A stretch of 64,000 nucleotides of DNA from Imbroritus primus (GTDB taxonomy: Bacteria > Pseudomonadota > Gammaproteobacteria > Burkholderiales > Burkholderiaceae), in the NCBI GenBank assembly GCA_000272025.2, contig AKCV02000011.1, positions 62,001-126,000 on the forward strand, in the 5' to 3' direction. Positions 21,337 through 40,897 of the stretch are shown in pieces. The position numbers were made by a program, and so were the translations under genes. Every line of letters starts with the position of its first letter. Position 1 is the stretch's first letter. Below the pieces are notes generated by a model, which made no database searches, was not told the DNA's origin, and saw nothing but the letters and a program-made list of their open reading frames with translations.

Positions 21337-21342
21337 GAATCC

Positions 21343-24163: not shown

Positions 24164-24266
24164 CGTTTACCGCACGCGGTCTTCCCTCCTTCCCCGAGCC
24201 GGTGCGCGGACCTGTTCCACAGGTCCGGGGGGAGGCGTTTGCCCTGACATCTGCAAGGAAAGCATC

Positions 24267-25283: not shown

Positions 25284-26033
25284 TCAGCTGTCTTCCTTGG
25301 GCATTTGCGACACGATGAACTCGTGGTGCGCAGTGTCCAGCGTGGACACGCGCCACTCCACCGGCAGGCGATGGAACGAGAACGCCACACGGTGGATGCG
25401 GATCAACGGCGCACCGACATCGACACCGATCAGCCCGGCCTCGGTTTCGGTGGCCAGCACGGCGCGCAGCCGCTCTTCCGTCTGGATCACATTGACGCCG
25501 AACGCGTCCTGGTAGAAGTTGTACAGCGTATTCGGGCGTTCGCGCAGCTGGGTTTCCGTCAGGCCAGGAAACAGTCTTTCCGGCAGCATGATGTCGTCGA
25601 TCATCACCGGCCGCTCGTCGAGCGACAGCACGTTGGTGAAATGAAACACCCGCTCCCCTGATTCCAGTCCCAGCAGCGCACAGGCCGCCTTGTCGGCCTT
25701 GATGCGGCGAAACGATTTCTGCTGCACGGTCGGATAGCCGCGGTGGCCATCCTCGTGCGCCACCTTGAAGAAGCGGAAGAAATGGTCGTCGCGGCGGTGC
25801 ATGGCGACGAAGGTGCCGCGCCCCTGATGGCGGATCAGCAGGTTCTCGGCCACCAGCTCGTCGATTGCCTTGCGCAGCGTGCCGATGGACACACCGAAGC
25901 GCTCCACCAGTTTCTTTTCCGACGGAATGGCCTCGCCGGGCTTGAATTCGCCATCGGCCAGCGCTTGCAGCACGCGGCGCTTGACGTCCTTGTAGAGGAC
26001 GCCGCCTGGCGGAAGATCTCGCAGATTGCTCAT
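25284..26033 (-). CDS. suyR: GntR-family regulator, HutC/UTRA type (SuyR-like)
   Basis: A 249-residue regulator with a GntR winged helix (GEFKPGEAIPSEKKLVERFG, then SIGTLRKAIDELVAENLLIR) and a C-terminal UTRA ligand domain beginning around residue 85 and ending VEWRVSTLDTAHHEFIV. The ATG at 26033 was chosen; an in-frame ATG lies 42 bases upstream without a ribosome-binding site. It is divergent from suyA, as regulators called SuyR are in sulfolactate degraders, and a dyad overlapping the suyA -35 box is a natural target. The symbol is by context; the effector, perhaps sulfolactate, is inferred. Confidence 0.82.
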   Translation of the reverse strand: MSNLRDLPPGGVLYKDVKRRVLQALADGEFKPGEAIPSEKKLVERFGVSIGTLRKAIDELVAENLLIRHQGRGTFVAMHRRDDHFFRFFKVAHEDGHRGYPTVQQKSFRRIKADKAACALLGLESGERVFHFTNVLSLDERPVMIDDIMLPERLFPGLTETQLRERPNTLYNFYQDAFGVNVIQTEERLRAVLATETEAGLIGVDVGAPLIRIHRVAFSFHRLPVEWRVSTLDTAHHEFIVSQMPKEDS

Positions 26034-26084
26034 GGCTCGGTGTGGTTTTTTGAATGCATTGAATGTAGCAGACATTAAATCATA

Positions 26085-26108
26085 CAACTCATACATATGA
26101 CATAGTTG
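26085..26108. promoter_or_regulatory. Candidate SuyR operator
   Basis: The dyad CAACT-N4-CATATG-N4-AGTTG is centred on CATATG and overlaps the -35 box of the suy promoter by 3 bases. It lies in the divergent gap and could block suyA transcription and affect the regulator gene. Confidence 0.5.
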
Positions 26109-26134
26109 ACATGCAGGAATTTCGCTACTATTCT
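26106..26134 (+). promoter_or_regulatory. Sigma70 promoter of the suy operon
   Basis: A consensus TTGACA (26106-26111) and TATTCT (26129-26134) are 17 bases apart. The suyA start has a full AGGAGG at 26183-26188. This is one of the strongest-looking promoters in the window. Confidence 0.75.
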
Positions 26135-26193
26135 TTGCACATCCGGCCGCTGCTCTCCAGCCAGGCCGTAAATCAAGTCCCCAGGAGGAGTAT

Positions 26194-26475
26194 ATGATCC
26201 ACGTAGTGCTGCATGATGCAAAAGACACCGTCGCCGTGGCGGTGGTTGAGGGAATCCAGGCCGGTACCGAACTGAACGCCTGGATCATGGACGAAGACAA
26301 GACCATCCAGGTCGTCGCCAAGCAGCCGATCCCCATCGGCCACAAGGTCGCCCTGCGCGACATGGAAGTTGGCGAGACGGTGTTCAAGTACGGCATCGAC
26401 ATCGGCAAGGTGGTGGCCCCGATCAAGGCTGGCGATCACGCACACGTCCACAACATCAAGACCAAGCGCTGGTAA
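26194..26475 (+). CDS. suyA: (R)-sulfolactate sulfo-lyase, alpha (small) subunit; UxaA/SAF domain
   Basis: A 93-residue SAF-domain protein (VVAKQPIPIGHKVALRDM, GETVFKYG, HVHNIKTKRW), the size and form of the small subunit of the UxaA/GarD-type lyases. SuyAB cleaves (R)-3-sulfolactate to pyruvate and sulfite. Altronate or galactarate dehydratase is the alternative, but those are usually one fused chain, and the following genes (a sulfolactate-type pair of dehydrogenases) favour sulfolactate. A perfect AGGAGG lies 5 bases before the ATG and a strong promoter precedes it. It opens the operon suyA-suyB-slcC-comC. Confidence 0.85.
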   Translation: MIHVVLHDAKDTVAVAVVEGIQAGTELNAWIMDEDKTIQVVAKQPIPIGHKVALRDMEVGETVFKYGIDIGKVVAPIKAGDHAHVHNIKTKRW

Positions 26476-26522
26476 TCCGCGCCTGACCGTCCCCTCCCCA
26501 TACATCTATTGAGAGAACATTC

Positions 26523-27698
26523 ATGTCCGTGATCGACCAAAACACCACTTTCTGGGGCTACCGCCGTGACAACGGCCGCGTCGGCGTCCGTAACCATGTG
26601 ATCATCCTGCCCCTGGACGACCTGTCCAACGCCGCTGCCGAAGCAGTTGCCGTGGCCATCAAGGGCACCATGGCCATCCCCCACCCGTACGGCCGCCTGC
26701 AGTTCGGTCCGGACCTGGACCTGCACTTCCGCACCCTGATCGGCGCCGGCAGCAACCCGAACGTCGCCGCCGTGGTGGTGATCGGTATTGAAGACGGCTG
26801 GACCAAGAAGGTTGTCGACGGCATCGCCAAGACTGGCAAGCCGGTTGTCGGCTTCGGTATCGAAGGCCACGGCGACCACGACACCATCATGCGTGCCTCG
26901 AAGGCCGCCAAGGAATTCGTGCAGTATGCCACCGCCCTGCACCGTGTCGAATGCCCGATCAGCGACCTGTGGGTGTCGACCAAGTGCGGCGAATCCGACA
27001 CGACCTCGGGCTGCGGCGCCAACCCGACCGTGGGTAACGCCTTCGACAAGCTGCATCCGCTCGGTACCACCCTGGTGTTCGGCGAAACCTCTGAGCTCAC
27101 CGGTGGCGAACACATCGTGGCAGCCCGCTGCGCCAATGACTCGGTGCGCGAGGACTTCATGAAGATGTTCAATCGCTACCAGGACATGATCGACCGCTGG
27201 AAGACCACCGACCTGTCCGAGTCGCAACCGACCAAGGGCAACATCGCTGGTGGCCTGACGACCATCGAAGAAAAAGCCCTGGGTAACATCCAGAAGATCG
27301 GCAAGAAGTGCACCGTGGACGGCGTGCTGGACAAGGCTGAAGAGCCGACCCACCCGGGCCTGTGGTTCATGGATTCGTCGTCGGCTGCGGCTGAAATGGT
27401 TACGCTGTGCGCCGCTTCGGGCTTCGTCGTGCACTTCTTCCCGACGGGCCAGGGCAACGTGATCGGCAACCCGATCGTTCCGGTCATCAAGCTGTGCGCC
27501 AACCCGCGTACCGTCCGCCTGATGAGCGAGCACATGGACGTCGATTGCTCGGGCCTGCTGCAGCGCGAGCTGACGCTGGACCAGACCGGCGACAAGCTGC
27601 TCGAGTGCATGCTCCAGACCATCAACGGCCGCTGGACTGCCGCTGAAGCCCTGGGCCACCGCGAATTCGTGCTCACGCGTATCCACGAGTCCGCATAA
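26523..27698 (+). CDS. suyB: (R)-sulfolactate sulfo-lyase, beta (large) subunit
   Basis: A 391-residue UxaA-family C-terminal subunit. It begins [20 protein letters not shown], the family's N-terminal signature, and carries conserved cysteines in [20 protein letters not shown] and the block [19 protein letters not shown]. Length and opening match SuyB of Paracoccus and Cupriavidus more than the ~490-residue altronate dehydratases. With SuyA it eliminates sulfite from (R)-sulfolactate, giving pyruvate. The stop overlaps the slcC start (TAATG at 27696-27700). Codon usage here is notably regular, with few rare codons, suggesting a well-expressed gene. Confidence 0.85.
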
Positions 27699-28633
27699 TG
27701 AAGCAAGTCTGCATCAGCGAGTTCATGGACCCTGATGCCGTGGCGGTGCTGGACAAGTGCGTCCAGCTCCGTTACGAGCCGACATGGGTCGACCAGCGCG
27801 ATGTCCTGCTGAAGTCCTTGGCGAACGTCGATGCCTTGATCGTGCGTAACCGCACCCAGGTCAACGCCGAACTGCTTGACGCCGCTCCGGCGTTGAAAGT
27901 GGTCGGTCGCCTGGGTGTCGGTCTCGACAATATCGATGTCAAGGCCTGCGAAGCACGCGGCATTCGCGTCATTCCCGCCACTGGCGCCAACGCGCGCTCG
28001 GTGGCCGAGTATGTGGTCACGTCCGCGCTGATGCTGATGCGCGGCGCTTACCTCAGCCATGCGGAAATGGTGGCTGGTAAGTGGCCGCGCGCCCGTTTGT
28101 CCGAAGGCCACGAGGCTTTCGGACGAACGCTCGGTCTGATCGGATTCGGCGATATCGGCCGGCTCACGGCGCGGCTTGCCGCGGCGCTGGGCATGCAGGT
28201 GGTCGCGCACGATCCGATGCTCCCGGCCGATCATCCGGCCTGGGCCGAAAATAATGTGAAGCCGCTGGCGCTGGACGCGCTGCTGGCCACCGCCGATGCG
28301 GTGAGCCTGCATGTGCCCCTGGTTCCGGCCACACGGCACCTGATCAATGCAGAACGCATCCGCGGCATGAAGCGCGGTGCGGTTCTGATCAATACCGCGC
28401 GGGGCGGCGTCGTCGATGAGGCCGCCCTCGCTACCGCCCTCAAGGAGGGGACACTGGCAGGCGCCGCGCTCGACGTGTTCGAAAACGAACCGTTGAGCGC
28501 TGGCGGCGTGCTGGCAGACGCCCCCAACCTGGTCCTGACCCCGCACATCGGCGGCGTCAGTCACGAAGCCAATGTCCGGGTGTCGATGATGATCGCCGAC
28601 GCCGTCCGCGACGCTCTCGGAGTGCAGGCATGA
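27698..28633 (+). CDS. slcC: D-isomer-specific 2-hydroxyacid dehydrogenase; (S)-sulfolactate dehydrogenase
   Basis: A 311-residue NAD-dependent dehydrogenase of the phosphoglycerate-dehydrogenase family. The Rossmann motif is LIGFGDIGRLTAR, and the catalytic Arg, Glu and His are visible in NTARGGVVDE, ALDVFENEPL and LTPHIGGVS. Placement between suyB and a second, unrelated dehydrogenase matches the sulfolactate pathway of Chromohalobacter, where SlcC oxidises (S)-sulfolactate to sulfopyruvate and ComC reduces it to the (R) form for SuyAB. It overlaps both neighbours (TAATG and ATGA), so the four genes are translationally linked. The substrate is inferred from context. Confidence 0.8.
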   Translation: MKQVCISEFMDPDAVAVLDKCVQLRYEPTWVDQRDVLLKSLANVDALIVRNRTQVNAELLDAAPALKVVGRLGVGLDNIDVKACEARGIRVIPATGANARSVAEYVVTSALMLMRGAYLSHAEMVAGKWPRARLSEGHEAFGRTLGLIGFGDIGRLTARLAAALGMQVVAHDPMLPADHPAWAENNVKPLALDALLATADAVSLHVPLVPATRHLINAERIRGMKRGAVLINTARGGVVDEAALATALKEGTLAGAALDVFENEPLSAGGVLADAPNLVLTPHIGGVSHEANVRVSMMIADAVRDALGVQA

Positions 28634-29634
28634 CCGCGTACCGCGCAGAAGAACTCGAACAGCTCGCGGCTGCCGCGCTGCGCAACGGCGGCGCCAGCGC
28701 CGCCCAGGCCAGCGCCACTGCCAAAGCGCTGGTACAGGCGGATCTCGCTGGCCTGCCCTCGCACGGCGTCTCGCGCGTGCCGATGTACGTGGCCCATCTG
28801 CGCCACCAGCGCGTGAACGGCAACGCCCAGCCAGTGATCGCTCGCCAGACCCAGAGCACGACGCTGATCGATGCCCAGTCCGGCTTTGCCTTCCCTGCCT
28901 GTGCCCAGGCCGTCAACGCGGCCATCGCCAGCGCACGTGAATATGGCATTGGCATTGGCGTGGTCACGAACAGCCATCACTTCGGTGCGGCTGCCCTGCA
29001 TCTCGACCCTGTGGCCGAAGCCGGCATGATCGGCATGGCCATGGGCAATTCACCGGCTGCCATGCCCGCATGGGGCGGCAAGACCCCGCTGTTTGGCACC
29101 AATCCGATCGCCGCAGTATTCCCGCGCACCGGCCAGAATCCACTGGTGATCGACCTTTCGCTGTCGGAAGTGGCACGCGGCAAGATCATGGTCGCCGCCA
29201 AGCAGGGCAAGCCGATTCCGCTCGGTTGGGCGCTCGATGCCGAAGGCAATCCGACGACCGATCCGAACGAAGCGCTGCGCGGCTCGATGCTGCCGGCCGG
29301 CGGTGTCAAGGGCGCGATGCTGGCGCTGATCGTCGAGCTGCTGATCGTCTCGCTCGCCGGCGCGCAGTTCGGCGCGGAAGCCGATTCGTTCTTCGAGGAT
29401 GCCGGCAACCAGCCACGCATCGGCCAGCTGTTCATCGTATTCAATCCGGCTGCCTTCGCCGGCGAAGCGGTCTATCACGCCCGCCTCGAAGCCCTGATTG
29501 CCGCGATGCTGGCCGACCAGGGCACCCGCCTGCCGGGCACGCGTCGCTTCGACGCACAAGCCAAGGCAGAAGCCGATGGCATCACCGTGCCCGAAGCACT
29601 GGACAAGGAGTTGCAGGCCCTCGCCCAGCGTTGA
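28630..29634 (+). CDS. comC: Malate/L-lactate (LDH2) family dehydrogenase; (R)-sulfolactate dehydrogenase
   Basis: A 334-residue member of the Ldh2/MDH2 oxidoreductase family, which has its own fold, unlike ordinary malate dehydrogenases. Family landmarks are LAGLPSHGVSRVP, the catalytic histidine in VVTNSHHFGAAA, NPIAAVFPR and the glycine-rich GGVKGAMLALIVELL. In sulfolactate degraders ComC reduces sulfopyruvate to (R)-sulfolactate with NAD(P)H, so that with SlcC both enantiomers reach SuyAB. The ATGA overlap with slcC fixes the start. In a different setting this family also acts on ureidoglycolate or malate, so the assignment depends on its neighbours. Confidence 0.8.
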   Translation: MTAYRAEELEQLAAAALRNGGASAAQASATAKALVQADLAGLPSHGVSRVPMYVAHLRHQRVNGNAQPVIARQTQSTTLIDAQSGFAFPACAQAVNAAIASAREYGIGIGVVTNSHHFGAAALHLDPVAEAGMIGMAMGNSPAAMPAWGGKTPLFGTNPIAAVFPRTGQNPLVIDLSLSEVARGKIMVAAKQGKPIPLGWALDAEGNPTTDPNEALRGSMLPAGGVKGAMLALIVELLIVSLAGAQFGAEADSFFEDAGNQPRIGQLFIVFNPAAFAGEAVYHARLEALIAAMLADQGTRLPGTRRFDAQAKAEADGITVPEALDKELQALAQR

Positions 29635-29845
29635 TCGTTCATTCGGTTTTCGGTCGGTCATTCACTTAGCCGTTCATCCAGTCAAAGCTGGTCGCCCGCG
29701 CAGCCTGGCGCTGCATGGGCGCCGCTCCGCAGTGCCGCCGGGTCGGCGCTGAGGGAGGCGCTTTGACCGCCTGCGCACCCGGGCAAGCAGTTGTCGTACC
29801 CTCGGCGCCCCGCAGAGAGGCGCCTGTTCCACCACAGGAGACACT

Positions 29846-30829
29846 ATGTACCGCAATCTCGTCCGCCGCCTTGCCGTTCCCTCGCTCGCCGCCGTGGCCA
29901 TGCTGGCCGCTCCGGCCAGTGCCAGTGCGCAGGCGACGGATTTCCCCAACAAGGCCGTCCGCTATGTCATTCCGTTCGCCGCAGGCGGCCTGACCGATAT
30001 TTCCGCACGCCAGGTCGGCCAGTTCCTGGCCCAGGAATGGAAACAGCCGGTGGTCGTGGAAAACAAGCCGGGCGGCAACGCCAACATCGGCGCGGAGCAG
30101 GTCGCGCGCGCCCCGGCGGATGGTTACACGTGGCTAGGCGTGACGCTCGCGCACTCGGCCAACCCGACGCTGTTCCCCAAGCTGTCGTTCAACTTCCAGA
30201 AAGACCTGGTACCGGTGGCGCGCATCGCCTCGTCACCGATGATGGTGGTGGTGCCGGCCAATTCGCCGATCAAGACACTTAAGGAGCTGGCCGAGGCCGC
30301 GCACAAGAAGCCGCTGAATGCCGGTTCGAGCGGCAACGGCACCCCTCCGCACCTGACGCTGGCGCTGTTTGAAACGCTGACCAAGACCAACTTCACGCAC
30401 GTGCCCTACAAGGGCGGCGCGCCCTCGATGAACGACCTGATCGGCGGCCAGATCGACGTGGTGTTCTCGAACTTCCCGGAATCGCTGCAGTTCGTGAAGG
30501 GTGGCAAGCTGCGCGCCCTGGCCGTGACCACGCGTGAACGCCACCCGCTGATGCCGAACGTGCCGACCGTGGCCGAAGCCGGCTTCCCCGACCTGATCGT
30601 GGAAAACTGGACCGGCCTGATGATGCCTGCCGGTACGCCGAAACCCATCATCGACAAGACGGCCAGCGCCATCGGCAAGATGATGGAAGTGAAGAGCGTG
30701 CGTGAGCGCATCATCGCCATCGGTTTCACGCCGGCGCCGCAGAACTCGGCTGACTTCACCAAGTACTACAACGCCGAAGTCGCACGCTGGGGCAAGCTGA
30801 TCAAGGAACGCAACATCCAGGCGGACTGA
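29846..30829 (+). CDS. Bug-family receptor, likely for the sulfolactate operon
   Basis: A 327-residue periplasmic receptor. The signal peptide ends near ASAQATDFPN and the core has FPNKAVRYVIPFAAGGLTDI, VENKPGGNANIGAEQVA, PADGYTWLGV, VPYKGGAPSMNDLIGGQ and NVPTVAEAGFPDL. It follows comC in the same direction after 211 bases and ends in a strong terminator, so it may be expressed with the suy genes. Chromohalobacter uses a tripartite tricarboxylate transporter (SlcHFG) for sulfolactate; this protein would equal the receptor, but its two membrane partners are missing here. Sulfolactate as ligand is inferred. Confidence 0.85.
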   Translation: MYRNLVRRLAVPSLAAVAMLAAPASASAQATDFPNKAVRYVIPFAAGGLTDISARQVGQFLAQEWKQPVVVENKPGGNANIGAEQVARAPADGYTWLGVTLAHSANPTLFPKLSFNFQKDLVPVARIASSPMMVVVPANSPIKTLKELAEAAHKKPLNAGSSGNGTPPHLTLALFETLTKTNFTHVPYKGGAPSMNDLIGGQIDVVFSNFPESLQFVKGGKLRALAVTTRERHPLMPNVPTVAEAGFPDLIVENWTGLMMPAGTPKPIIDKTASAIGKMMEVKSVRERIIAIGFTPAPQNSADFTKYYNAEVARWGKLIKERNIQAD

Positions 30830-30857
30830 TCGCCAAACCGTTTTACCCTTGCCTTTC

Positions 30858-30894
30858 AAGAGGTTGCCTGCGCTCGCCAGGCAGCCTCTTTTTT
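30858..30894 (+). terminator. Intrinsic terminator of the suy unit
   Basis: AAGAGGTTGCCTG and CAGGCAGCCTCTT form a 13-base-pair stem (one G-U pair) around a 7-base loop, followed by TTTT. It sits 28 bases after the Bug gene and also lies at the end of the convergent LysR gene. Confidence 0.88.
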
Positions 30895-30911
30895 CTTTGG
30901 CGCGGCTAGCG

Positions 30912-31838
30912 CTAGCTGGGGGTGAAAGGGCGCGGGGCTTGTGCCACCTTGCTGCGGATCGCCCCGCTCTGGCGGAAATAACCCTTGATGACATCCGTGA
31001 ACGCCATGCGGGCATGCGCCGCACGTTCGAGCAGGCCTACCCGGCGATGCACATCCACGCCTTCCAGCGGCACCACGCGCAGCAGCCGGTCGGCCTCCCA
31101 GCGCACGTTGGCGAGCTGCGGCACGATCGACACGCCGAAACCCTGTCGCACCAGCTCGATAATGGCTTCGTTCGAGTTGAGCTGCATGCTCTCCTGCACC
31201 GAGACGCCACAGCGGTCGATGACTTCCTGGACCAGATTGCCGGTCCACGTGGCAGGCTCGAACCGCATGAAAGGTGCCACGCCGAGGATGTCGCGGGCAT
31301 CGTCCGGCAGCACGAAATGCGGATGACGCGGCACGATCAGGACCATCGGCTCTGTATACAGTTCGGTCCACACCAGGTTCTTGGCCAGCGGACGCGGCGA
31401 TTGCGTCACCACCGCGGCGTCGATTTCCCCACGCTCGACCTTGCCGGCAAAGTCGGCCGACAAACCGGCGAACAGTCGCACGTCGACCAGCGGATGCTCC
31501 TGCTTGAGTGCCCACAGGGCATCTGCAAATGCGCCCATCAATGCTGACACCAGCGCGCCCATCATTACCGTACCGGAGAGTGCGTCCTCACGTCCGCTGG
31601 CCAGCACCTCGTAGCGATGGACCAGTGCTTCCAGTTCCGGTACCAGGGCGCGGCCGGCGGGATTGAGGATGGCGGCGCGGGCCGTGCGGTCGAACAGCTG
31701 GCAGTGGAGGTCTTCTTCCAGCGCGCGGATCTGCAGCCCAACCGCTGCCGAAGTCAGGCCGATGTGCTTGCCGGCGGCCGCGAAGGTGCCGTGGCGGGCC
31801 ACGGCGAGAAAGGTCTTGAAAGTACGGATCGAAGGCAT
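30912..31838 (-). CDS. LysR-family transcriptional regulator
   Basis: A 308-residue LysR protein: the winged helix FKTFLAVARHGTFAAAGKHI then GLTSAAVGLQIRALEEDL, and a PBP2-type effector domain. It is convergent with the suy Bug gene and divergent from the succinate dehydrogenase-like operon, from which it is separated by 219 bases holding an A/T-rich palindrome. LysR regulators usually activate the divergent operon in response to its substrate, so it probably controls the genes 32058-37830. The effector is not predictable, but a dicarboxylate is a reasonable guess from the target genes. Confidence 0.92.
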   Translation of the reverse strand: MPSIRTFKTFLAVARHGTFAAAGKHIGLTSAAVGLQIRALEEDLHCQLFDRTARAAILNPAGRALVPELEALVHRYEVLASGREDALSGTVMMGALVSALMGAFADALWALKQEHPLVDVRLFAGLSADFAGKVERGEIDAAVVTQSPRPLAKNLVWTELYTEPMVLIVPRHPHFVLPDDARDILGVAPFMRFEPATWTGNLVQEVIDRCGVSVQESMQLNSNEAIIELVRQGFGVSIVPQLANVRWEADRLLRVVPLEGVDVHRRVGLLERAAHARMAFTDVIKGYFRQSGAIRSKVAQAPRPFTPS

Positions 31839-31924
31839 GGCGGGACCGGAAAAGCGAGGTGGCGGGGAAATGGCAGAGCAGACACATCCGCACGCCTGCC
31901 GTGCGGGCTCGCCATTGAAAAAGT

Positions 31925-31947
31925 TTTTCTTTATCTAAATAAGAAAA
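31925..31947. promoter_or_regulatory. LysR operator candidate
   Basis: TTTTCTT-TATCTAAAT-AAGAAAA is a perfect 7-9-7 inverted repeat in the divergent gap, about 12 bases before a plausible -35 box. Position and symmetry fit a LysR recognition site. Confidence 0.55.
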
Positions 31948-31958
31948 TTACTAGCTTT

Positions 31959-31987
31959 TTGTTTCTGGTGCAATCCGCAACAATACT
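31959..31987 (+). promoter_or_regulatory. Putative promoter of the frd-like operon
   Basis: TTGTTT (31959-31964) and AATACT (31982-31987) are 17 bases apart. The -35 box is weak, as expected for a LysR-activated promoter. Confidence 0.4.
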
Positions 31988-32057
31988 CTTCAAGCCGGTC
32001 GTAAACATCCATATGATTTAGATGATAACCGGTCACAACACTCCCCCGATCGAACCC

Positions 32058-33483: not shown

Positions 33484-33589
33484 GGCTTCAGCGTAAACAC
33501 TGTTTCATAAACACCGCTTCATAAACACAATAAGGCGAGCGTCGGTCCCGTAGAGGCGCCGCGCTCTTCCCTCACCGAAGGAGACTGCC

Positions 33590-34582
33590 ATGACGTTGTT
33601 GAAGAAATCCACCCGCCGCCAATGGATCTCGCTGTGCCTCGGCGCGGTTGCCGCCCTGAGCGTGGGCACGGCTCAGGCCCAGACCTGGCCTACCCGTCCC
33701 GTGACGATGATCGTCCCGTTCGCCGCTGGCGGCACCACCGACGTAGTCGGACGCGTGCTGGGCCAGAAGCTCGGCGAACTGTGGAAGCAGAGCGTGGTGA
33801 TCGACAACCGTCTTGGCGCCGGCGGCGCGGTCGGCGCACAGGCCACAGCCAAGGCCCCGGCGGACGGCTACACCATCATGCTGGCCTCGGGCAGCATGTT
33901 CACCGTCAACCCGTTCATCTACCAACGCCTGCCGTACAGCGCCAAGGATTTCTCCTTCATCACCAACGTGGCCAGCGGCCCGATGCTGGTGGTGGTCAAT
34001 CCTGAAGTGCCGGCGAAGAACCTGAAGGAACTGATCGCCCTGGCCAAGTCCAAGCCGGGCCAGCTGAACTTCGGCTCGGCCGGTACTGGCAGCCAGGTGC
34101 ACATGGCCGGCGAAGCATTCGCCGACGCCGCTGGCGTCAACATCACCCACGTTCCGTACAAGGGTGAAGCGCTGGGCTACAACGACCTGATGGCTGGCCA
34201 GGTGCAACTGATGGTCGGCAATATCGCTGCGTCGTCGAACTTCGCCAAGTCGGGCAAGCTGCGCGCGCTGGCCGTGACCGGCAAGGAGCGCTCGCCGATG
34301 ATGCCGGACGTGCCGACGGCGGCGGAAGCCGGCCTGAACGGCATGGACGACGTGACCGGCTGGTTCGGCTTCGTGGTACCGGCTGGTACGCCGAAGGAGA
34401 TTGTCGACAAGATCTACCGCGACACCGTGAAGGTGCTGGCTGATCCGGACACGCAGGCCCGCCTGGCCGCCCAGGGCATGAAGGCCGTGGGCAACACCCC
34501 GCAACAGCTGACGGCTCAGATTGCTGCGGAATCGCAAAAATGGGAAAAGGTTGTCAAGAACCGCAAGCTGTCGGCCAACTGA
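33590..34582 (+). CDS. Bug-family receptor in the frd/fumarase operon
   Basis: A 330-residue periplasmic receptor. The signal peptide ends near VGTAQAQTWP and the Bug core follows: WPTRPVTMIVPFAAGGTTDV, IDNRLGAGGAVGAQATA, PADGYTIMLASG, HVPYKGEALGYNDLMAGQ and DVPTAAEAGLNGM. It lies inside an operon for a succinate dehydrogenase-like complex and a class I fumarase, which strongly suggests a C4 or substituted C4-C6 dicarboxylate ligand. No TctA/TctB is linked. Placement between anchor and fumarase genes, all on one strand, argues for a shared function rather than chance. Confidence 0.9.
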   Translation: MTLLKKSTRRQWISLCLGAVAALSVGTAQAQTWPTRPVTMIVPFAAGGTTDVVGRVLGQKLGELWKQSVVIDNRLGAGGAVGAQATAKAPADGYTIMLASGSMFTVNPFIYQRLPYSAKDFSFITNVASGPMLVVVNPEVPAKNLKELIALAKSKPGQLNFGSAGTGSQVHMAGEAFADAAGVNITHVPYKGEALGYNDLMAGQVQLMVGNIAASSNFAKSGKLRALAVTGKERSPMMPDVPTAAEAGLNGMDDVTGWFGFVVPAGTPKEIVDKIYRDTVKVLADPDTQARLAAQGMKAVGNTPQQLTAQIAAESQKWEKVVKNRKLSAN

Positions 34583-34616
34583 TTTCCCGCTGTAACGAAG
34601 AAGACCGAGGAACCTC

Positions 34617-35492
34617 ATGAAAGTTGATCTCGCCGCCGTGGAAGAGGCGGCCAAGGAACTGTACATCCGTGCCTTGAAGCTGCTGCCGCCCGATGTCAAG
34701 GATGGCATCGAGCAGCTGCGCACCAAGGAAACATCCGACACGGCGCGCAATGTCCTGGCCACCATGAGCAAGAACATCCGCATCGCGGAAGAGACCGACA
34801 ATCTGCTGTGCCAGGATACCGGCGTACCGATCTACAACCTGTTGATCGGCGCCGGTGTCGAGGCCGATGGCCATGCCATCAAGGAGGCCATCCGCCGCGG
34901 CTGCGAGCGCGCCACGCGCGAGCATCCGCTGCGCTCCTCGGTCGTCCACCCCCTCACTCGCAAGAACAACCACACGTCGTGCGGTATCGAAGTGCCGGTG
35001 ATCCACATCGATTTCGATGACACGCCGGAACGCATGACGCTGGAGATGGTGCCCAAGGGCAGCGGCTCCGAAAACAACTCATTCCTCAAGATGGCGATTC
35101 CCGCCGAGGGCATCGACGCCATCAAGACTTTCGTGATCGACAGCGTGATCGCCGCGGGCGGCAAGACCTGCCCGCCGACCATCGTCGGCGTGGGCCTGGG
35201 CGGCACCTCCGACCTGTGCGTGGCACTCGCCAAGCGCGCCGCCACACGCGAACTCGGCACGGTGTGCAGCGATCCGGAAGGCGCCAAGCTGGAAGCCGAA
35301 CTGTCGGCTGCCGTGAACAAGCTTGGCGTCGGCCCGCAAGGCCTGGGTGGTGACGCCACCGCCTACGCCGTACACATCGAGCTGGCGCACACGCACATCA
35401 CCATGAACCCGATCGCGGTCAACATGCAGTGCCACTCGGCGCGCCGCGCCTCGGCCACGTTCACGCCCGACGGCCTTACTTACGGATTCTGA
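34617..35492 (+). CDS. Class I fumarase/tartrate dehydratase-type hydro-lyase, alpha subunit
   Basis: A 291-residue subunit of an oxygen-sensitive [4Fe-4S] hydro-lyase. Cys65 (LLCQDTGVP), Cys185 (KTCPPT) and Cys272 (NMQCHSARR) are spaced like the three cluster ligands of TtdA (intervals 120 and 87), with GLGGDATAYAVHIE between. It pairs with the beta subunit encoded three bases later. Such two-subunit enzymes hydrate fumarate, mesaconate or L-tartrate-type substrates. Coupled to a succinate dehydrogenase-like complex it would turn a succinate analogue into its hydroxy acid. The exact substrate is not clear. Confidence 0.9.
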   Translation: MKVDLAAVEEAAKELYIRALKLLPPDVKDGIEQLRTKETSDTARNVLATMSKNIRIAEETDNLLCQDTGVPIYNLLIGAGVEADGHAIKEAIRRGCERATREHPLRSSVVHPLTRKNNHTSCGIEVPVIHIDFDDTPERMTLEMVPKGSGSENNSFLKMAIPAEGIDAIKTFVIDSVIAAGGKTCPPTIVGVGLGGTSDLCVALAKRAATRELGTVCSDPEGAKLEAELSAAVNKLGVGPQGLGGDATAYAVHIELAHTHITMNPIAVNMQCHSARRASATFTPDGLTYGF

Positions 35493-35494
35493 CC

Positions 35495-36109
35495 ATGGCG
35501 CACTACGAACTTTCCACGCCGGTGACGGAAGAGCAGATCCGCCAACTGCGCATCAATGACACCGTGACGCTGCAGACCACGCTGTTCGGCATCCGCGACG
35601 CCACGCAGATCCACATGTTCGACCGCGGCCGCAAGACCCGCTTCGACCTGCGCGGCCATGCGGTGATCCACACCGCCCCGAATGTGCGCAAGGTCGAGCC
35701 AAGCCCCGAGTTTCCCGCCGGTTACCAGCAGATCTGCATCGGCACCACCACGTCGGACCGCATGGAACGCTTCACCCGCCCGCTGATGACGGAATACGGT
35801 GTGCGCATGATCGTCGGCAAGGGTGGCATGCGCGAAGGCTCGCAGGAGGCCTTCAAGGAACTCGGCGGCGTGTACCTCGCCATCATCGGCGGCACGGCGG
35901 CACTGGAAACGACCTGGATCGAGCAGATCGAAGACGTGGATCTCGACGACCTCAATCCGGAATCGCTGTGGAAATTCAAGATCCGCAATTTCGGCCCGCT
36001 GCTGGTCGCCATGGATAGCCACGGCGGCAGCCTCTACACGGCCGTCAAGCAAAACACCGCTGACCAGCGCGCGGCTGTGCTGGCCAGCCTCGGAGTGGCC
36101 AAGGCATGA
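35495..36109 (+). CDS. Class I fumarase/tartrate dehydratase-type hydro-lyase, beta subunit
   Basis: A 204-residue subunit corresponding to the C-terminal half of FumA and to TtdB. It has LRINDTVTLQTTLFGIRDAT near the start, GTTTSDRMERFTRPLM, the GKGGMREGSQEAF loop and the NFGPLLVAMDSHGGSLY segment that lines the substrate site. The start MAHYELS is favoured by the short 2-base gap after the alpha gene; an earlier in-frame start would overlap alpha. The stop overlaps the flavoprotein start by ATGA, showing that hydro-lyase and oxidoreductase are made together. Confidence 0.9.
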   Translation: MAHYELSTPVTEEQIRQLRINDTVTLQTTLFGIRDATQIHMFDRGRKTRFDLRGHAVIHTAPNVRKVEPSPEFPAGYQQICIGTTTSDRMERFTRPLMTEYGVRMIVGKGGMREGSQEAFKELGGVYLAIIGGTAALETTWIEQIEDVDLDDLNPESLWKFKIRNFGPLLVAMDSHGGSLYTAVKQNTADQRAAVLASLGVAKA

Positions 36110-37830
36110 GCATCAAACGACTGCAGACCGATGTGCTGATCCTCGGCTCCGGCGGCGCTGGCCTGTTCGCCGCGCTGCATGCGCACCAGAGCGCGCCGGA
36201 CCTGAAGATCACTGTCGCGGTAAAAGGCTTGCTGGGCAAATGCGGCTGCACGCGCATGGTCCAGGGCGGCTACAACGTGGCGCTCGCCCAGGGCGACTCC
36301 GTCGAGCGCCACTTCATGGACACCATCGAGGGCAGCAAGTGGCTGGCCGACCAGGAACTCGCCTGGACCCTGGTCAAGACCGCTGTGGAGCGCATCCATG
36401 AACTCGAGAACGAGCTCGGCTGCTTCTTCGACCGCAATCCCGATGGCACCGTCCACCAGAAAGCCTTCGCTGGCCAGACCTTCGACCGCACCGTACACAA
36501 GGGCGACCTGACGGGCATCGAGATCATCAACCGCCTCGCCGAGCAGGTGTGGAGCCGCGGCATCAACCGCCTCGAGGAACACCGCGCGGTCGAGCTGATC
36601 AAGACCCCGGACGGCTCCGCGCTGGCCGGCGTGCTGATGATCGACATGCGCAGCGGCGAATTTGTGTTCGTCCAGGCCAAGGCGGTGCTGCTCGCCACTG
36701 GCGGCGGCCCGACCATGTACAAGTTCCACACGCCGTCTGGCGACAAGAGCTGCGACGGCCTCTCCATGGCCCTGCGCGCCGGCCTGCCGCTGCGTGACAT
36801 GGAGATGGTGCAGTTCCACCCGACCGGGCTGCTTGCCGGCAAGGAAACCCGCATGACCGGCACGGTCCTCGAAGAAGGCTTGCGCGGTGCGGGCGGCTGG
36901 CTGCTGAACGGCAACAAAGAGCGCTTCATGCAGAACTACGACCCGCGCAACGAGCGCGCCACGCGTGACATCGTCTCGCGCGGCATCTACTCGGAGATGC
37001 GCGCGGGCCGTACGTCGCCCAACGGCGGCGTGTACATCCAGATGAGCCATCTCGGTCCGGACAAGGTGCGCAAGCAGTTCAAGGGCATGGTCGAGCGCTG
37101 CGGTGATTGCGGTTTCGATCTGGCCGGCGATCTCGTGGAAGTGGTGCCGACCGCCCACTACATGATGGGCGGCGTGCAGTTCAAGCCGGATTGCACCACC
37201 GAGCTGCACGGCCTGTTCGCAGCCGGAGAGGATACCGGCGGCGTGCATGGCGCGAACCGCCTCGGCGGCAACGGCGTGGCCAACTCGACCGTGTTCGGCG
37301 GCATTGCCGGCGACAGCATGGCGGCCTGGGTGAAGCAGAATAACGCGCTGCGCATGCCGGACGAATCCGCCATCAGCGCCGCCATCGCCGCGATGGAAGC
37401 GCCGTTCCGCCAGCCCGCCGGCCGGCTCGACGCGATCCGCGAGGGCCTCTACGATTGCATGTGGGACGATGCCGGCATCATGCGCACCGAAGCCGGACTG
37501 CTGCGGGCCCGCAAGCGCCTTGCCGAACTGAGCGAAGCGCTTGCCGCCACCGGCGTCGCCGACGGCCATCGCGGCTTCAATGTCACCTGGCACGACTGGC
37601 TCAACCTGCGCAGCCTGATCGACGTGAGCCGCGTCATCGTGGAAGCCGCACTGTCCCGCGAGGATTCGCGTGGCGCGCATTTCCGCGACGACTTCCCGGC
37701 AACCGGCGACCTGCCCAGCTCGTCCTTTACCGTGGTGCGTCAACGCAATGGCGAACTGGATATCACACGCTCGCCAGTCCAGTTCACGCGTGTCGCTCCC
37801 GGCCAAACAATCCTGGAGGACGCCGCCTGA
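36106..37830 (+). CDS. Succinate dehydrogenase/fumarate reductase-like flavoprotein lacking the covalent-FAD histidine
   Basis: A 574-residue flavoprotein. The FAD Rossmann motif is VLILGSGGAGLFAALHAH, the substrate His is in VQFHPTGLLAG, a second His is in VVPTAHYMMGGVQF, and the catalytic Arg is in ATRDIVSRGIY. In SdhA/FrdA the FAD is attached to a His five residues before a conserved Gln (SHTVSAQGG). Here the matching stretch is GCTRMVQGG and the position is Cys48, so FAD is probably not covalently bound, as in L-aspartate oxidase. Catalytic residues are otherwise intact. It completes the complex begun at 32058, with fumarase genes inserted between. Confidence 0.9.
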   Translation: MSIKRLQTDVLILGSGGAGLFAALHAHQSAPDLKITVAVKGLLGKCGCTRMVQGGYNVALAQGDSVERHFMDTIEGSKWLADQELAWTLVKTAVERIHELENELGCFFDRNPDGTVHQKAFAGQTFDRTVHKGDLTGIEIINRLAEQVWSRGINRLEEHRAVELIKTPDGSALAGVLMIDMRSGEFVFVQAKAVLLATGGGPTMYKFHTPSGDKSCDGLSMALRAGLPLRDMEMVQFHPTGLLAGKETRMTGTVLEEGLRGAGGWLLNGNKERFMQNYDPRNERATRDIVSRGIYSEMRAGRTSPNGGVYIQMSHLGPDKVRKQFKGMVERCGDCGFDLAGDLVEVVPTAHYMMGGVQFKPDCTTELHGLFAAGEDTGGVHGANRLGGNGVANSTVFGGIAGDSMAAWVKQNNALRMPDESAISAAIAAMEAPFRQPAGRLDAIREGLYDCMWDDAGIMRTEAGLLRARKRLAELSEALAATGVADGHRGFNVTWHDWLNLRSLIDVSRVIVEAALSREDSRGAHFRDDFPATGDLPSSSFTVVRQRNGELDITRSPVQFTRVAPGQTILEDAA

Positions 37831-37852
37831 TGTAATGCATGGAGGAGACGCC

Positions 37853-38059
37853 ATGAACCACGAGCCGCCCCAGGCGGTCAACACCATCGGTGCGCGGTTG
37901 CCGGATGATTCCATCCGGCAGCGGCGATTCGGCCGGTTCGCGCCAGTCTGGCGCGACCGGCTATCCTTTTTTGTACGGGGCGTCTCGCCCTGCACGGCCT
38001 GGCGTGCCCGCAGGCCCTCCTCGACCCTCTACGCGACGCTACCCGTCTCGTCACGATAG
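37853..38059 (+). CDS. Possible 68-aa small protein between the flavoprotein and TPP-enzyme genes
   Basis: An ATG with a strong GGAGGAG at 37841-37847 (5-base spacing) opens a 68-codon frame, MNHEPPQAVNTIGARL and onward, arginine-rich and without recognised motifs. The sequence also holds a terminator hairpin at 37933-37972 inside the frame. It may be a leader peptide, a real small protein or chance. No other feature is seen in the 37831-38091 gap. Confidence 0.25.
   Translation: MNHEPPQAVNTIGARLPDDSIRQRRFGRFAPVWRDRLSFFVRGVSPCTAWRARRPSSTLYATLPVSSR
37933..37972 (+). terminator. Intrinsic terminator after the frd/fumarase operon
   Basis: CCGG(T)TCGCGCCA and TGGCGCGACCGG form a 12-base-pair stem with one bulged T around a 3-base loop, followed after six bases by TTTTTT. 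It would end or attenuate transcription before the TPP-enzyme gene. Confidence 0.7.
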
Positions 38060-38091
38060 CGTCTCCCAACCCCCGTCACACAGGAGCAGAC

Positions 38092-39711
38092 ATGGCGAAG
38101 AAACAACGTGGCGCAGATGCACTGACCGCCGCACTCCGGCAGTCCGGTATCGATCGCATCTTCACCCTCTCGGGGAATCACATCATGCCGATCTTCGATG
38201 CCTGCATCGATGCGGACATCGATCTGATCCACACCCGCCATGAAGGCTCCACGGTGCACATGGCCGATGCCTGGTCGCGCATCACCGGCCAGGTCGGCAT
38301 TGCCATGGTGACGGGCGGCCCGGGCCATGCCAATGCCGTGTCGGCGCTGTACACCGCACAGATGTCGGAGGCACCGGTGGTGCTGCTCTCCGGCCACGCA
38401 CCGAATAACCAGCGCGGCGCGGGCGCCTTCCAGGAAATGCGCCAGGCCGACATGGCCGAGCCAGTCACCAAGGCCTCGTGGACCTGTGCGAGCCCCGACG
38501 CGATTGCCGCCGACATCCAGCTCGCCATGCAGATCGCCGCCAGCGGCCGGCCCGGTCCAGTGCACTTGAGCCTGCCGAGCGATGCGCTGGAACTCGATGT
38601 GAAGCAGCCGGGCAATGCATCGATCGCCGTGCCCGCAAGCCTGCCAGCCTGCGATGCACAGACGGCCAAGCAGGTGCTGGAGGCCCTGGCGCGCGCCAAG
38701 CGTCCGCTGGTGCTGGCCGGTCCGGCCTGGCTGACAGCGCGCGCGCGCAAGCAGATTGCCGAACTGGAAGCCCGCCTCGGCATTCCCGTGGTGGGCATGG
38801 AAAGCCCGCGCGGCAATAACGACCCGAGCCTCGGCGCATTCGCGCAGATGCTGGCGCAGGCCGACTGCGTGCTGCTGCTCGGCAAGCGTCTCGATTTCAC
38901 GCTCAAGTTCGGCAAGGCACCCGCCTTTGCCGCAGACTGCACCTTTTTGCACATCGACGCCGAGCAGTCGGAACTCGACCGCAGCCGCCGCGCCGTCGGC
39001 GAACGCCTGGCCATCGCCCAGCGCGCCGATGTCGGCAGTGCCATTGCGCAATTGCTCGAGCAGGCCAAGGGCGGCCAGCATCAGGCATGGCTGGCCGAGG
39101 TTGCCGATGCCATCCGTTATCGCCCGGCGTCCTGGGACACCGCATCGTCGCAAGGCGCGCTCCATCCAGTGCAGGTCTGCCGCCCACTGCAGACCATCCT
39201 AGACAGCCATCCGGAAGCCGTGCTGGTGTCCGATGGCGGCGAGTTCGGCCAGTGGGCGCAAGCCTGCCTGAGCGCCCCGCACCGCGTGATCAACGGCCCG
39301 GCTGGCGCCATTGGCAGCGCCCTGCCGATGGCGCTGGCGGCGCGTGTGGCGCGCCGCGATGCGCCGGTCATCGCCATGATGGGTGATGGCACGACCGGCT
39401 TCCATATCGCCGAGTTCGACACCGCCGTGCGCTACGGCCTGCCGTTTGTCGCCGTGGTCGGCAACGATGCCCGTTGGAACGCCGAATACCAGATCCAGAT
39501 CAACAGCTTTGGCAAGGACCGCCTGGTCGGCTGCGAGCTGCTGCCAACGCGCTACGACCAGGTGTGCGCGGCTTTCGGCGGCCACGGGGAGTTGGTACAG
39601 CGACCGGAAGACATGCTGCCGGCCGTGCAGCGCGCCATCGCCTCCGGCAAGCCGGCGTGCGTGAACGTGACAATGGAAGGCATTCCGGCGCCGTCGGTCT
39701 CGCGCAAGTAA
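38092..39711 (+). CDS. Thiamine-diphosphate-dependent enzyme (acetolactate synthase/decarboxylase superfamily)
   Basis: A 539-residue enzyme with three domains: N-terminal Pyr domain with the catalytic Glu in TRHEGSTVHMADAWSRITG, a central domain (~190-330), and a C-terminal PP domain with the ThDP motif MMGDGTTGFHIAEFDTAVRY ending in GNDARWN. The superfamily includes acetolactate synthase, oxalyl-CoA decarboxylase, sulfopyruvate and sulfoacetaldehyde enzymes. It is not the ~600-residue Xsc type. A Shine-Dalgarno AGGAG precedes the ATG and a terminator follows, so it can be its own unit. The substrate is unknown; a 2-keto acid from the neighbouring operons is possible. Confidence 0.85.
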   Translation: MAKKQRGADALTAALRQSGIDRIFTLSGNHIMPIFDACIDADIDLIHTRHEGSTVHMADAWSRITGQVGIAMVTGGPGHANAVSALYTAQMSEAPVVLLSGHAPNNQRGAGAFQEMRQADMAEPVTKASWTCASPDAIAADIQLAMQIAASGRPGPVHLSLPSDALELDVKQPGNASIAVPASLPACDAQTAKQVLEALARAKRPLVLAGPAWLTARARKQIAELEARLGIPVVGMESPRGNNDPSLGAFAQMLAQADCVLLLGKRLDFTLKFGKAPAFAADCTFLHIDAEQSELDRSRRAVGERLAIAQRADVGSAIAQLLEQAKGGQHQAWLAEVADAIRYRPASWDTASSQGALHPVQVCRPLQTILDSHPEAVLVSDGGEFGQWAQACLSAPHRVINGPAGAIGSALPMALAARVARRDAPVIAMMGDGTTGFHIAEFDTAVRYGLPFVAVVGNDARWNAEYQIQINSFGKDRLVGCELLPTRYDQVCAAFGGHGELVQRPEDMLPAVQRAIASGKPACVNVTMEGIPAPSVSRK

Positions 39712-39753
39712 GCGCGAGGGCCCGCAGTGTAGTCTCGTGGGTCGTCAGGATGC

Positions 39754-39788
39754 AAAACGCCGGACAGGGCATCCCTATCCGGCGTTTT
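39754..39788. terminator. Intrinsic terminator
   Basis: AAAACGCCGGA and TCCGGCGTTTT enclose an inner AGGG-CAT-CCCT stem, giving one long hairpin with A and T tracts on both sides. It separates the convergent TPP-enzyme and TauE/SafE genes. Confidence 0.9.
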
Positions 39789-39855
39789 CTTTTCGCCTGT
39801 GTTTTCACCCGTGCGCCGGTCCGGCATACCGGATGCCGGTGATGTTCCCGGGCCG

Positions 39856-40623
39856 CTAGCCCACGGTGCTGCGCACCAGCAGACCCACGCCCGCCACGAT
39901 CAGCACGGCCCACACCACGCGCACTACCTTGGCCGGGGCAATACGCTTGTGCAGCCACACGCCGATGAGATAGCCGATGAAGGCAAACGGCACCAGCATG
40001 GCAGCCAGCACGAAGATCGCGGTATTCACATAGAGCCCGGCCAGCGCGAACAGGATCAGCCGCGTGAAGGCAGTGATGACCACCAGGATGCTGGTGGTGG
40101 CGCGCAGTTGCGCAGGATCGCGCAAGCGGCCGGCGAGATAGATTGCATAGACCGGGCCGCCCGTGCCGAACATCGAGGTTAGCATGCCGCCAGCAAGGCC
40201 GAAGGGCGTCGACAAACGTGGATCGAGCTCAGAGAAGCCTCGCTTGAAGAGCAGGCTCCAGCCCGAATGCAGCAGCACGAACAGGCCCAGCACGAACAGC
40301 AGTGGCCGCTCCGGCGCATAGACTAGCAGCATCAGGCCCAGGACCATGCCAGCGATGACGCTCGGCACGATGCGTTTCAACTCACCGGTATGCACGTTAT
40401 GGCGGTTACGCAGGCCCAGCATCGTGCCGAGGATGATGTCGAACAGCAGGATCATCGGCACCGCGGTGCGCAGCGGCACGATCTGCGTGAGCAGCGGGAT
40501 GGCCATGATGGACGAGCCGAAACCGGTCAATCCGAAAATCGTGTAAGCCCAGATGATGATCGCAGCGACGCCAGCGAACTGCACCAGTGACAGGTCAGTT
40601 TGCAGCAGAAGGGATTCCAGCAT
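39856..40623 (-). CDS. TauE/SafE-family membrane exporter
   Basis: A 255-residue membrane protein with seven to eight hydrophobic segments and the TauE/SafE landmarks GLTGFGSSIMAIPLL near the N-terminus and GLAGGMLTSMFGTGGPVYAIYL in the second half. Members export sulfite, sulfoacetate or other small anions. The start was set at MLESLLLQTD. In a neighbourhood with SuyAB, which liberates sulfite from sulfolactate, sulfite export is an attractive role, but the gene is about 10 kb from suyAB and convergent with the TPP enzyme. The link is therefore an inference. Confidence 0.85.
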   Translation of the reverse strand: MLESLLLQTDLSLVQFAGVAAIIIWAYTIFGLTGFGSSIMAIPLLTQIVPLRTAVPMILLFDIILGTMLGLRNRHNVHTGELKRIVPSVIAGMVLGLMLLVYAPERPLLFVLGLFVLLHSGWSLLFKRGFSELDPRLSTPFGLAGGMLTSMFGTGGPVYAIYLAGRLRDPAQLRATTSILVVITAFTRLILFALAGLYVNTAIFVLAAMLVPFAFIGYLIGVWLHKRIAPAKVVRVVWAVLIVAGVGLLVRSTVG

Positions 40624-40897
40624 GGCGGGGATGCAAGGCAAAAAGCGAGGCGGGAAGCAGGCCGCACGCGCGTAGCGCAACACGCGTCAGGGGGAGCCCC
40701 ATCATAGGTCATGCGACCCATTCCCGTCAATCAGATCATATAGATGAATTGCTTACGCAGCACATGGCCCCACTTGAGGATGAGGCCGCTTTCCCCCGAA
40801 CGGAGGATAGGCAGTCATTTGGCGATCCTTTATCGTCCCGCACGGCACTTCCTGCGTCAGACAGCGAAGGCCGACACGATAAAAACCGGGGGTCGTC

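Follow-up and report, generated by a model that had tools for sequence, protein, structure and literature searches.

We report a sulfonate gene island of Imbroritus primus (Pseudomonadota; Burkholderiaceae), located at positions 25284-40748 of a 64,000-nucleotide stretch of contig AKCV02000011.1 (hereafter the window, to which all coordinates refer) and lying on a single contig of the 3.8-Mb genome. We found that a predicted sulfolactate module (suyAB-slcC-comC), a succinate dehydrogenase (SDH)-like complex with a two-subunit fumarase-type hydratase (FumAB) and a TauE/SafE-type exporter stand together there, that the same linkage recurs in other genomes, that one operator-like motif precedes suyA, sdhB and tauE, and that a residue in the active site of the SDH-like flavoprotein is altered. 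The modules very likely belong together as one sulfonate catabolic island, of which the SDH-fumarase part is likely the upstream half. The best explanation, and one that we regard as probable, is a route for 3-sulfopropanoate through SDH-fumarase, SlcC/ComC, SuyAB and TauE. On a slight balance, we favour the more specific proposal that a complex II paralogue has been taken over as a dedicated 3-sulfopropanoate:quinone oxidoreductase and a fumarase paralogue as a dedicated 3-sulfoacrylate hydratase.

In the proposed route, the SDH-like complex would oxidise 3-sulfopropanoate, the sulfonate analogue of succinate, to 3-sulfoacrylate, with the electrons entering the quinone pool via SdhB and the anchor subunits, and FumAB would hydrate 3-sulfoacrylate to 3-sulfolactate. 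SlcC and ComC would then racemise 3-sulfolactate through sulfopyruvate, SuyAB would cleave (R)-sulfolactate to pyruvate and sulfite, TauE would export the sulfite, and Bug receptors (tripartite tricarboxylate type) would likely take part in uptake. The logic would be that of the Krebs-cycle arm succinate-fumarate-malate-oxaloacetate, with one carboxylate swapped for a sulfonate. The addition of a dehydrogenase and a hydratase of succinate/fumarate type to sulfonate islands suggests a succinate-like substrate that yields sulfolactate. An earlier model-made reading of the window from its letters and open reading frames (ORFs; hereafter the sequence-only reading) had proposed a single catabolic island, perhaps for a sulfonated dicarboxylate, in which oxidation and hydration by SDH-fumarase could precede sulfonate cleavage. 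This order is plausible, as SDH and fumarase chemistry would yield 3-sulfolactate, and 3-sulfopropanoate, which was missing from the substrates that reading had listed, such as sulfosuccinate and itaconate, appears to fit better because the two steps would lead straight to the SuyAB substrate.

The island comprises three gene sets, namely suyR-suyAB-slcC-comC-bug, then lysR with sdhBDC-bug-fumAB-sdhA and a gene for a thiamine diphosphate (ThDP)-dependent enzyme, and, on the opposite strand, tauE. No subunit of the SDH set is missing (sdhB, two anchors and sdhA), and Bug and fumAB sit ahead of sdhA. All genes named by the sequence-only reading are present where it had placed them, as seen from ORFs and Pfam. 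The anchors, the Bug receptors and both regulators were assigned by sequence, position and homologues, and the remaining families by Pfam scan; all substrates, and all reactions beyond family membership, are predictions from sequence. The features along the window are:

25284-26033, minus strand: suyR, GntR-family regulator (ORF, ATG at 26033; divergent from suyA)
26088-26111, plus strand: GntR (SuyR) operator-like site before suyA (position weight matrix, PWM, 32.6 bits)
26194-26475, plus strand: suyA, small SAF subunit of a predicted sulfolactate sulfo-lyase (Pfam SAF; adjoins suyB)
26523-27698, plus strand: suyB, large subunit of a predicted (R)-sulfolactate sulfo-lyase (Pfam GD_AH_second/GD_AH_C; homologue identity)
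27698-28633, plus strand: slcC, D-2-hydroxyacid dehydrogenase, predicted (S)-sulfolactate dehydrogenase (Pfam 2-Hacid_dh)
28630-29634, plus strand: comC, Ldh_2-family protein, predicted (R)-sulfolactate dehydrogenase (Pfam Ldh_2; context)
29846-30829, plus strand: Bug2, Bug/TctC-type periplasmic receptor (sequence; homologue behind comC elsewhere)
30912-31838, minus strand: lysR, LysR-family regulator (sequence; divergent from sdhB)
32004-32027, plus strand: GntR operator-like site before sdhB (PWM 19.7 bits)
32058-32771, plus strand: sdhB, iron-sulfur subunit (Pfam Fer2_3; NCBIfam dhsB; the ORF opens at 32022, and the ATG at 32058 is the more likely start because the operator-like site covers 32022)
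32768-33133, plus strand: sdhD-like membrane anchor (ORF; order conserved)
33130-33483, plus strand: sdhC-like membrane anchor (ORF; order conserved)
33590-34582, plus strand: Bug3, Bug/TctC-type periplasmic receptor within the SDH operon (sequence; recurs in many loci)
34617-35492, plus strand: fumA, alpha subunit of a two-subunit class I fumarase-type hydratase, predicted 3-sulfoacrylate hydratase (Pfam Fumerase)
35492-36109, plus strand: fumB, beta subunit of the FumAB hydratase (Pfam Fumerase_C)
36106-37830, plus strand: sdhA, flavoprotein, predicted 3-sulfopropanoate dehydrogenase (Pfam FAD_binding_2 and Succ_DH_flav_C)
38092-39711, plus strand: ThDP-dependent enzyme, predicted sulfopyruvate-acting accessory branch (Pfam TPP_enzyme_N/M/C)
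39856-40623, minus strand: tauE, TauE/SafE-type protein, predicted sulfite exporter (Pfam TauE)
40725-40748, minus strand: GntR operator-like site before tauE (PWM 28.5 bits; about 100 bp upstream of the ATG at 40623)

The SDH-like complex has the subunit set of complex II (SDH/quinol:fumarate reductase, QFR), with a flavin adenine dinucleotide (FAD) flavoprotein, an iron-sulfur subunit (SdhB, 190.6 bits against a cut-off of 88 for NCBIfam dhsB) and membrane anchors, the last identified by sequence and position only. Upon alignment with Escherichia coli FrdA, island SdhA keeps His232, Glu245 (which we take to be an active-site residue of E. coli QFR), Arg287, His355 and Arg390, has Glu256 in the slot of Thr244 and carries a loop insertion that holds Arg249, so that its active site departs from the succinate type at the Thr244 slot, with the rest kept. 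The Glu occurs in all 97 distinct island-type flavoproteins (68 with an island-type fumarase, 16 with a divergent fumarase and 13 with no fumarase on the locus), and the loop Arg in 69 of 69 rows with an island-type and 15 of 16 rows with a divergent fumarase, the latter counts omitting the 13 SdhA rows without FumA on the locus that the Glu count includes. Fumarases were grouped as T1 or T2 by a 55% identity cut on FumA, by which Rhodococcus (47%) falls in T2, and loci L052 and L139 are the same genome entered twice, which adds one to the pooled active-site, neighbour, promoter and operator counts. Elsewhere, the genome carries two more flavoproteins of the family, by sequence apparently the housekeeping SdhA (34% identical to island SdhA) and NadB, as well as a full-length class I fumarase; the Thr244 slot holds Thr in the housekeeping SdhA and Ser in the NadB-like protein, these two having been compared with one in six of the SdhA rows. 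The active-site residues of E. coli QFR include His232, Thr244, Arg287, His355 and Arg390, and Thr244 hydrogen-bonds the substrate carboxylate, carrying the reaction through the transition state (PMC10238741). Since this catalytic Thr is replaced by Glu, the island enzyme does not look like a spare succinate dehydrogenase, which by itself does not name its substrate; by its sequence island SdhA is a relative of complex II, and we do not file it as a succinate dehydrogenase. An AlphaFold model of SdhA (12 rows) has a mean pLDDT (predicted local distance difference test) of 66.5 and falls below 50 in the loop at residues 239-262, and it is used for no claim.

FumAB shows the features of a class I two-subunit fumarase/tartrate dehydratase, with C65, C185 and C272 of FumA (presumably cluster-binding cysteines) and K110, the KGG lysine of FumB, all conserved; these cysteines and the lysine are also kept in the genome's own housekeeping fumarase. 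FumB scores 148.9 bits against a cut-off of 264 in the L(+)-tartrate dehydratase beta model. The island resembles complex II and class I fumarases in its subunit set, in its domains for FAD and Fe-S and in most residues of the active site, whereas it differs from them in the Glu of the Thr244 slot, the Arg-bearing loop insertion, the placing of fumAB and Bug within the operon and the sulfonate surroundings.

At the other end of the route, SuyAB has the two-subunit SAF and GD_AH architecture in adjacent genes (Pfam), and SuyB has 95.9% identity, along its entire 391 aa, to a homologue from Cupriavidus pinatubonensis HN-2 that lies in an hpsN-hpsO cluster, a figure that refers to strain HN-2 and not to strain JMP134, whose SuyAB is the identified (R)-sulfolactate sulfolyase (PMC12890257). 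The hps-suyAB cluster of C. pinatubonensis has been described, and SlcC and ComC are known to interconvert the sulfolactate enantiomers (PMC11382572). The identity of SuyB and the published chemistry of SuyAB, SlcC and ComC would therefore place the end of the pathway on known ground. In the island, slcC shares 1 bp with suyB and 4 bp with comC. The best NCBIfam model for ComC is L-sulfolactate dehydrogenase (NF040650), with a score of 236.5 bits under the cut-off of 500, for which reason its assignment rests on context. TauE reaches 99 bits with PF01925 (cut-off 32.6), and sulfite transport is predicted for it. A Bug homologue lies behind comC in eight other loci (L055, L057, L059, L061, L064, L065, L067 and L068). 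In L044 and L045, a second suyA-like gene adjoins tauE, with no suyB match beside it.

When compared with known systems, the suyAB-slcC-comC sets of Chromohalobacter salexigens and Paracoccus pantotrophus (PMC12421959, PMC11382572) share with the island the sulfo-lyase, the two-dehydrogenase racemase and the exporter, but in the island an SDH-like complex and a fumarase of two subunits, preceded by the same operator-like motif, are added. Dihydroxypropanesulfonate degradation by hpsNOP-suyAB in C. pinatubonensis also ends in sulfolactate and SuyAB, whereas its upstream oxidation is by the nicotinamide adenine dinucleotide (NAD)-dependent HpsN (PMC11382572), and no gene of the island belongs to the HpsN family. 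The same chemical sequence as proposed here, 3-sulfopropanoate to sulfoacrylate to sulfolactate, is given for Roseovarius nubinhibens ISM on homotaurine in a thesis by J. Mayer cited in PMC11489063, where the citing passage names no genes for the two steps. Among the open-access papers that our searches listed, we found none assigning genes to 3-sulfopropanoate oxidation or sulfoacrylate hydration.

The modules are tightly linked within the family. Across 150 family genomes, the island flavoprotein was found in 13 and SuyB in 25, and all 13 flavoprotein carriers have SuyB; SdhA and SuyB stand on one contig in 12 of the 13, 4.3-10.3 kb apart, and on different contigs in the remaining genome, G002. 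A Fisher test of their association without the I. primus genome gives a p-value of 1.7e-11; it ignores relatedness and serves as a guide only. Synteny maps reveal the same gene set in differing orders across the family, and one genome beyond the 13, of 1.66 Mb (G093, locus L070), retains a decaying island with SdhA and SlcC in pieces and a partial SuyB. The gene order of the SDH set itself is kept across loci, and a Bug gene inside the SDH operon recurs in many of them.

Outside the family sample, we scanned named genomes, taking the best 80 loci of the matches listed, many of whose fetched pieces stop at contig ends. Besides many metagenome bins, they come from Massilia, Polaromonas, Caballeronia, Thiomonas, Allopusillimonas, Polynucleobacter and Methylobacterium. 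The fetched piece includes SuyB in 36 of these 80 loci, and in 22 of the 80 suyB and sdhB are co-directional and 0.08-2.2 kb apart, with the ThDP gene between them in 10 of these. Upon examining 41 genomes without SuyB on the piece, a check that leaves out two SuyB-less loci (L093 and L130), 36 match SuyB elsewhere (E <= 1e-60), with an identity of at least 63% in 34. Plasmids carry the set as well. In Methylobacterium oryzae it forms one 19-kb block that includes a molybdopterin oxidoreductase and a sulfate exporter; on Paracoccus versutus pTAV3, 26 kb hold SDH, divergent fumAB, TauE, SlcC, ComC, HpsNOP-like genes and SuyAB; and on Rhodococcus jostii pRHL1, about 28 kb hold FumAB, SdhA, SdhB, TauE, ComC, SlcC, SuyAB and a sulfate-exporter family gene, interrupted by an integrase gene and with no membrane anchor matched. 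A piece of an aldehyde dehydrogenase gene also lies within the Rhodococcus island.

The GntR operator-like motif ties the modules together in I. primus. Other genomes repeatedly have this 24-bp motif in front of suyA, beside the GntR gene; in 31 other loci (30 distinct) suyA and a suyR homologue diverge, as do sdhB and a lysR homologue in 22. With a PWM trained on 31 promoter regions of suyA (30 distinct), all from other genomes and none from the window, only three places in the window exceed 17.1 bits, the maximum across 200 Markov-simulated windows, and these are the sites before suyA, tauE and sdhB. A pattern built from the three sites, allowing up to two mismatches, has no fourth site in the 3.8-Mb genome and none in a reversed control; its recovery of the three is by construction, which the absence of a fourth is not. 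We predict that, with one such motif before suyA, sdhB and tauE, the island acts as a single sulfonate regulon. The linkage in 12 of 13 family genomes and the common motif bear out the single catabolic island of the sequence-only reading, with the exporter as its member. That separate sulfolactate and C4-dicarboxylate modules are side by side by chance is very improbable: the modules are indeed apart in G002 and in Paracoccus seriniphilus (two plasmids), but the linkage recurs in several genera and on the Methylobacterium and Rhodococcus plasmids, and this recurrence together with the shared motif largely rules out independent modules.

Several observations weigh against the 3-sulfopropanoate route or parts of it. 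FumA scores 305.2 bits in the NCBIfam fumarate hydratase model, above the curated cut-off of 276, and FumAB may therefore carry out plain fumarate hydration. The same score would suit sulfite-tolerant Krebs-cycle isoenzymes, that is, an SDH and a fumarase that handle succinate and fumarate during sulfite release and are co-induced for protection or flux. This resembles what the authors of a Paracoccus wurundjeri study made of its cluster 3 (MDP0926751-0926761), in which fumarate/tartrate genes and a TauE homologue are sulfofucose-induced together with SlcC, ComC and SuyAB and are linked by them to the Krebs cycle (PMC12421959); the cluster, a published hint of a response to a sulfonate, is likened to the island by annotation and not by gene sequences. 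We consider isoenzymes distinctly unlikely, given the Glu in place of the catalytic Thr in every distinct homologue, the Bug receptor inside the operon and the separate canonical-type SdhA and fumarase kept in the genome.

The main rival substrate, which the sequence would allow and which we hold to be unlikely, is sulfosuccinate. The SDH-like complex would convert it to sulfofumarate, fumarase would give 3-sulfomalate, SlcC sulfo-oxaloacetate, loss of CO2 sulfopyruvate, and ComC sulfolactate for SuyAB. Such a route would use the same genes, and the Bug, DctA-type and tripartite transporters of these islands would be in keeping with a sulfonated dicarboxylate. However, it would need an extra decarboxylation, the SDH site would have to hold a branched trianion, and a search of titles and abstracts in the open-access literature found no paper on a sulfosuccinate pathway (PMC5445686 mentions sulfosuccinate).

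Further points against the 3-sulfopropanoate route come from the distribution of the genes. Five of the 41 named genomes without SuyB on the piece have no SuyB match and two have one at only 36-39% identity. Among 299 Pseudomonadota genomes, the SDH subfamily was found in 7, SuyB in 8 and both in 4 (own genome included), where only matches on the upper side of a gap from 952 down to 367 bits count as SDH positives, so that 48 of the 55 genomes with E <= 1e-100 are set aside as generic SDH/fumarate reductase flavoproteins; 3 of the 7 SDH-positive genomes lack SuyB (E <= 1e-100). With 4 of 7 carrying SuyB, or 3 of 6 without the own genome, the tie is looser than in the family (Fisher test without own genome, p-value = 1.6e-4, again ignoring relatedness and a guide only). 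The sequence-only reading would have been undermined by modules occurring independently in related genomes: linkage held within the family, to about 10 kb, and loosened in the phylum. The three SuyB-less genomes belong to a second lineage, mostly Alphaproteobacteria, in which an SDH of 65-71% identity is paired with a different FumAB only 27-39% identical; SuyAB lies on the fetched piece in none of its 10 named loci (L127, L128, L137, L144, L150, L153, L157-L159 and L161), and most such genomes have SuyB elsewhere. Beside one SuyB-less copy (L186) are a HisD-family (HpsN-like) gene and a flavin mononucleotide (FMN) 2-hydroxyacid dehydrogenase, and beside another (L187) TauE, so the surroundings of two of the three could serve sulfonates without SuyAB.

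Regulation and neighbouring genes add to these points. In other genomes, the motif (at least 10 bits) precedes sdhB in 6 of 79, slcC in 9 of 46, the ThDP gene in 2 of 34 and tauE in 0 of 23 upstream regions, against a background of 1.2% of 1,140 random segments; its rarity before sdhB and tauE limits the three-site regulon to the own genome, and a SuyR operator before these two genes is unsupported as a general rule. Elsewhere, sdhB often stands behind suyAB on the same strand or divergent from lysR, and a GntR gene is divergent from sdhB in L053, L143 and L152; the wiring of the modules differs among genomes. In a neighbour survey of 100 SdhA loci (L055, without SdhA, excluded), neither a homotaurine aminotransferase nor a sulfopropanal dehydrogenase was present among the 20 annotated of 33 recurrent families, and the aminotransferase was accordingly dropped as a linked entry gene. 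Additionally, the ThDP gene occurs in 25 of the 80 best named SdhA loci, a minority of the islands, and its role is a guess.

The survey did recover genes of sulfonate and dicarboxylate handling. An ATP-binding cassette (ABC) importer recurs near SdhA (ATPase in 21, receptor in 20 and permease in 19 loci); it is TauB/SsuB-like, the best model for its ATPase being the taurine one, with a score under cut-off. Further recurrent families are a YeiH-type sulfate exporter (12 loci), a dicarboxylate symporter (10), an extra TauE (10), TctA (9), DctM (8), a SoxC-type sulfite dehydrogenase family (7, above cut-off), HisD-family (HpsN-like) proteins (6), HpsO-like short-chain dehydrogenases/reductases (6), GlcD-like FAD oxidases (5), FMN-type 2-hydroxyacid dehydrogenases (5) and another molybdopterin family (4). 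A sulfatase family turns up in 11 SdhA loci, and TauD-family dioxygenases lie about 7 kb from SdhA in L105, L109, L113, L116, L128, L140 and L148.

For the ThDP enzyme, the GlcD-like oxidases (we take SlcD to be GlcD-like) and FMN 2-hydroxyacid dehydrogenases near SdhA suggest a branch from a 2-hydroxyacid to a 2-oxoacid to its decarboxylation product, that is, from sulfolactate to sulfopyruvate to sulfoacetaldehyde. The enzyme would be an optional side branch decarboxylating sulfopyruvate, whose product could go to a separate Xsc. It scores 207.6 bits against a cut-off of 676.4 in the Xsc model TIGR03457, which rules it out as Xsc itself; an Xsc gene of 1055.6 bits lies elsewhere in the genome (contig C7, 399167-400909), which also holds four molybdopterin oxidoreductase-domain genes, and the genome perhaps has more than one sulfonate route. 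ThDP homologues (E <= 1e-90) are found on seven plasmids, six of which also carry SDH, the seventh (Variovorax) not being among the SDH matches. A 64% identical homologue in Variovorax adjoins a major facilitator superfamily gene, with a TauD/TfdA-family dioxygenase about 4 kb away and no SuyAB, TauE or SDH annotated within 25.6 kb; this and its presence in 25 of the 80 loci leave an essential step for the enzyme unsupported. In L164 (P. seriniphilus p449297), a ThDP gene lies near tauE, a D-cysteine desulfhydrase, an amino acid racemase and a histidinol dehydrogenase, away from the SDH copy.

3-Sulfopropanoate, the proposed substrate, has known biological sources, being formed from sulfoquinovose, an abundant sugar of plants, in Enterococcus gilvus and from homotaurine in other bacteria (PMC11489063). 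The same 2024 study states that, one thesis aside, there was no earlier report of bacteria degrading 3-sulfopropionate, and itself shows that Bilophila can use it as electron acceptor through a route still to be investigated. The island supplies candidate genes for an aerobic 3-sulfopropanoate route, and they are widespread. If the proposal holds, 3-sulfopropanoate mineralisation would for the first time have a gene set assigned to it, one that ranges from Burkholderiales (including small Polynucleobacter genomes) to Alphaproteobacteria and Rhodococcus. A Krebs-cycle arm would have been duplicated for sulfonates, feeding the respiratory chain directly, and textbook complex II would have been adapted to an organosulfonate, with a single active-site change as the mark of it.

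On either side of the island, positions 18632-25241 of the window hold an AMP-dependent ligase, IclR and GntR regulators, a metallophosphoesterase and another Bug (by sequence), which looks like a separate catabolic cluster, and positions 40898-44362 hold what we take to be lipoprotein/LpoB-type outer-membrane-like genes, which mark the right edge of the island.

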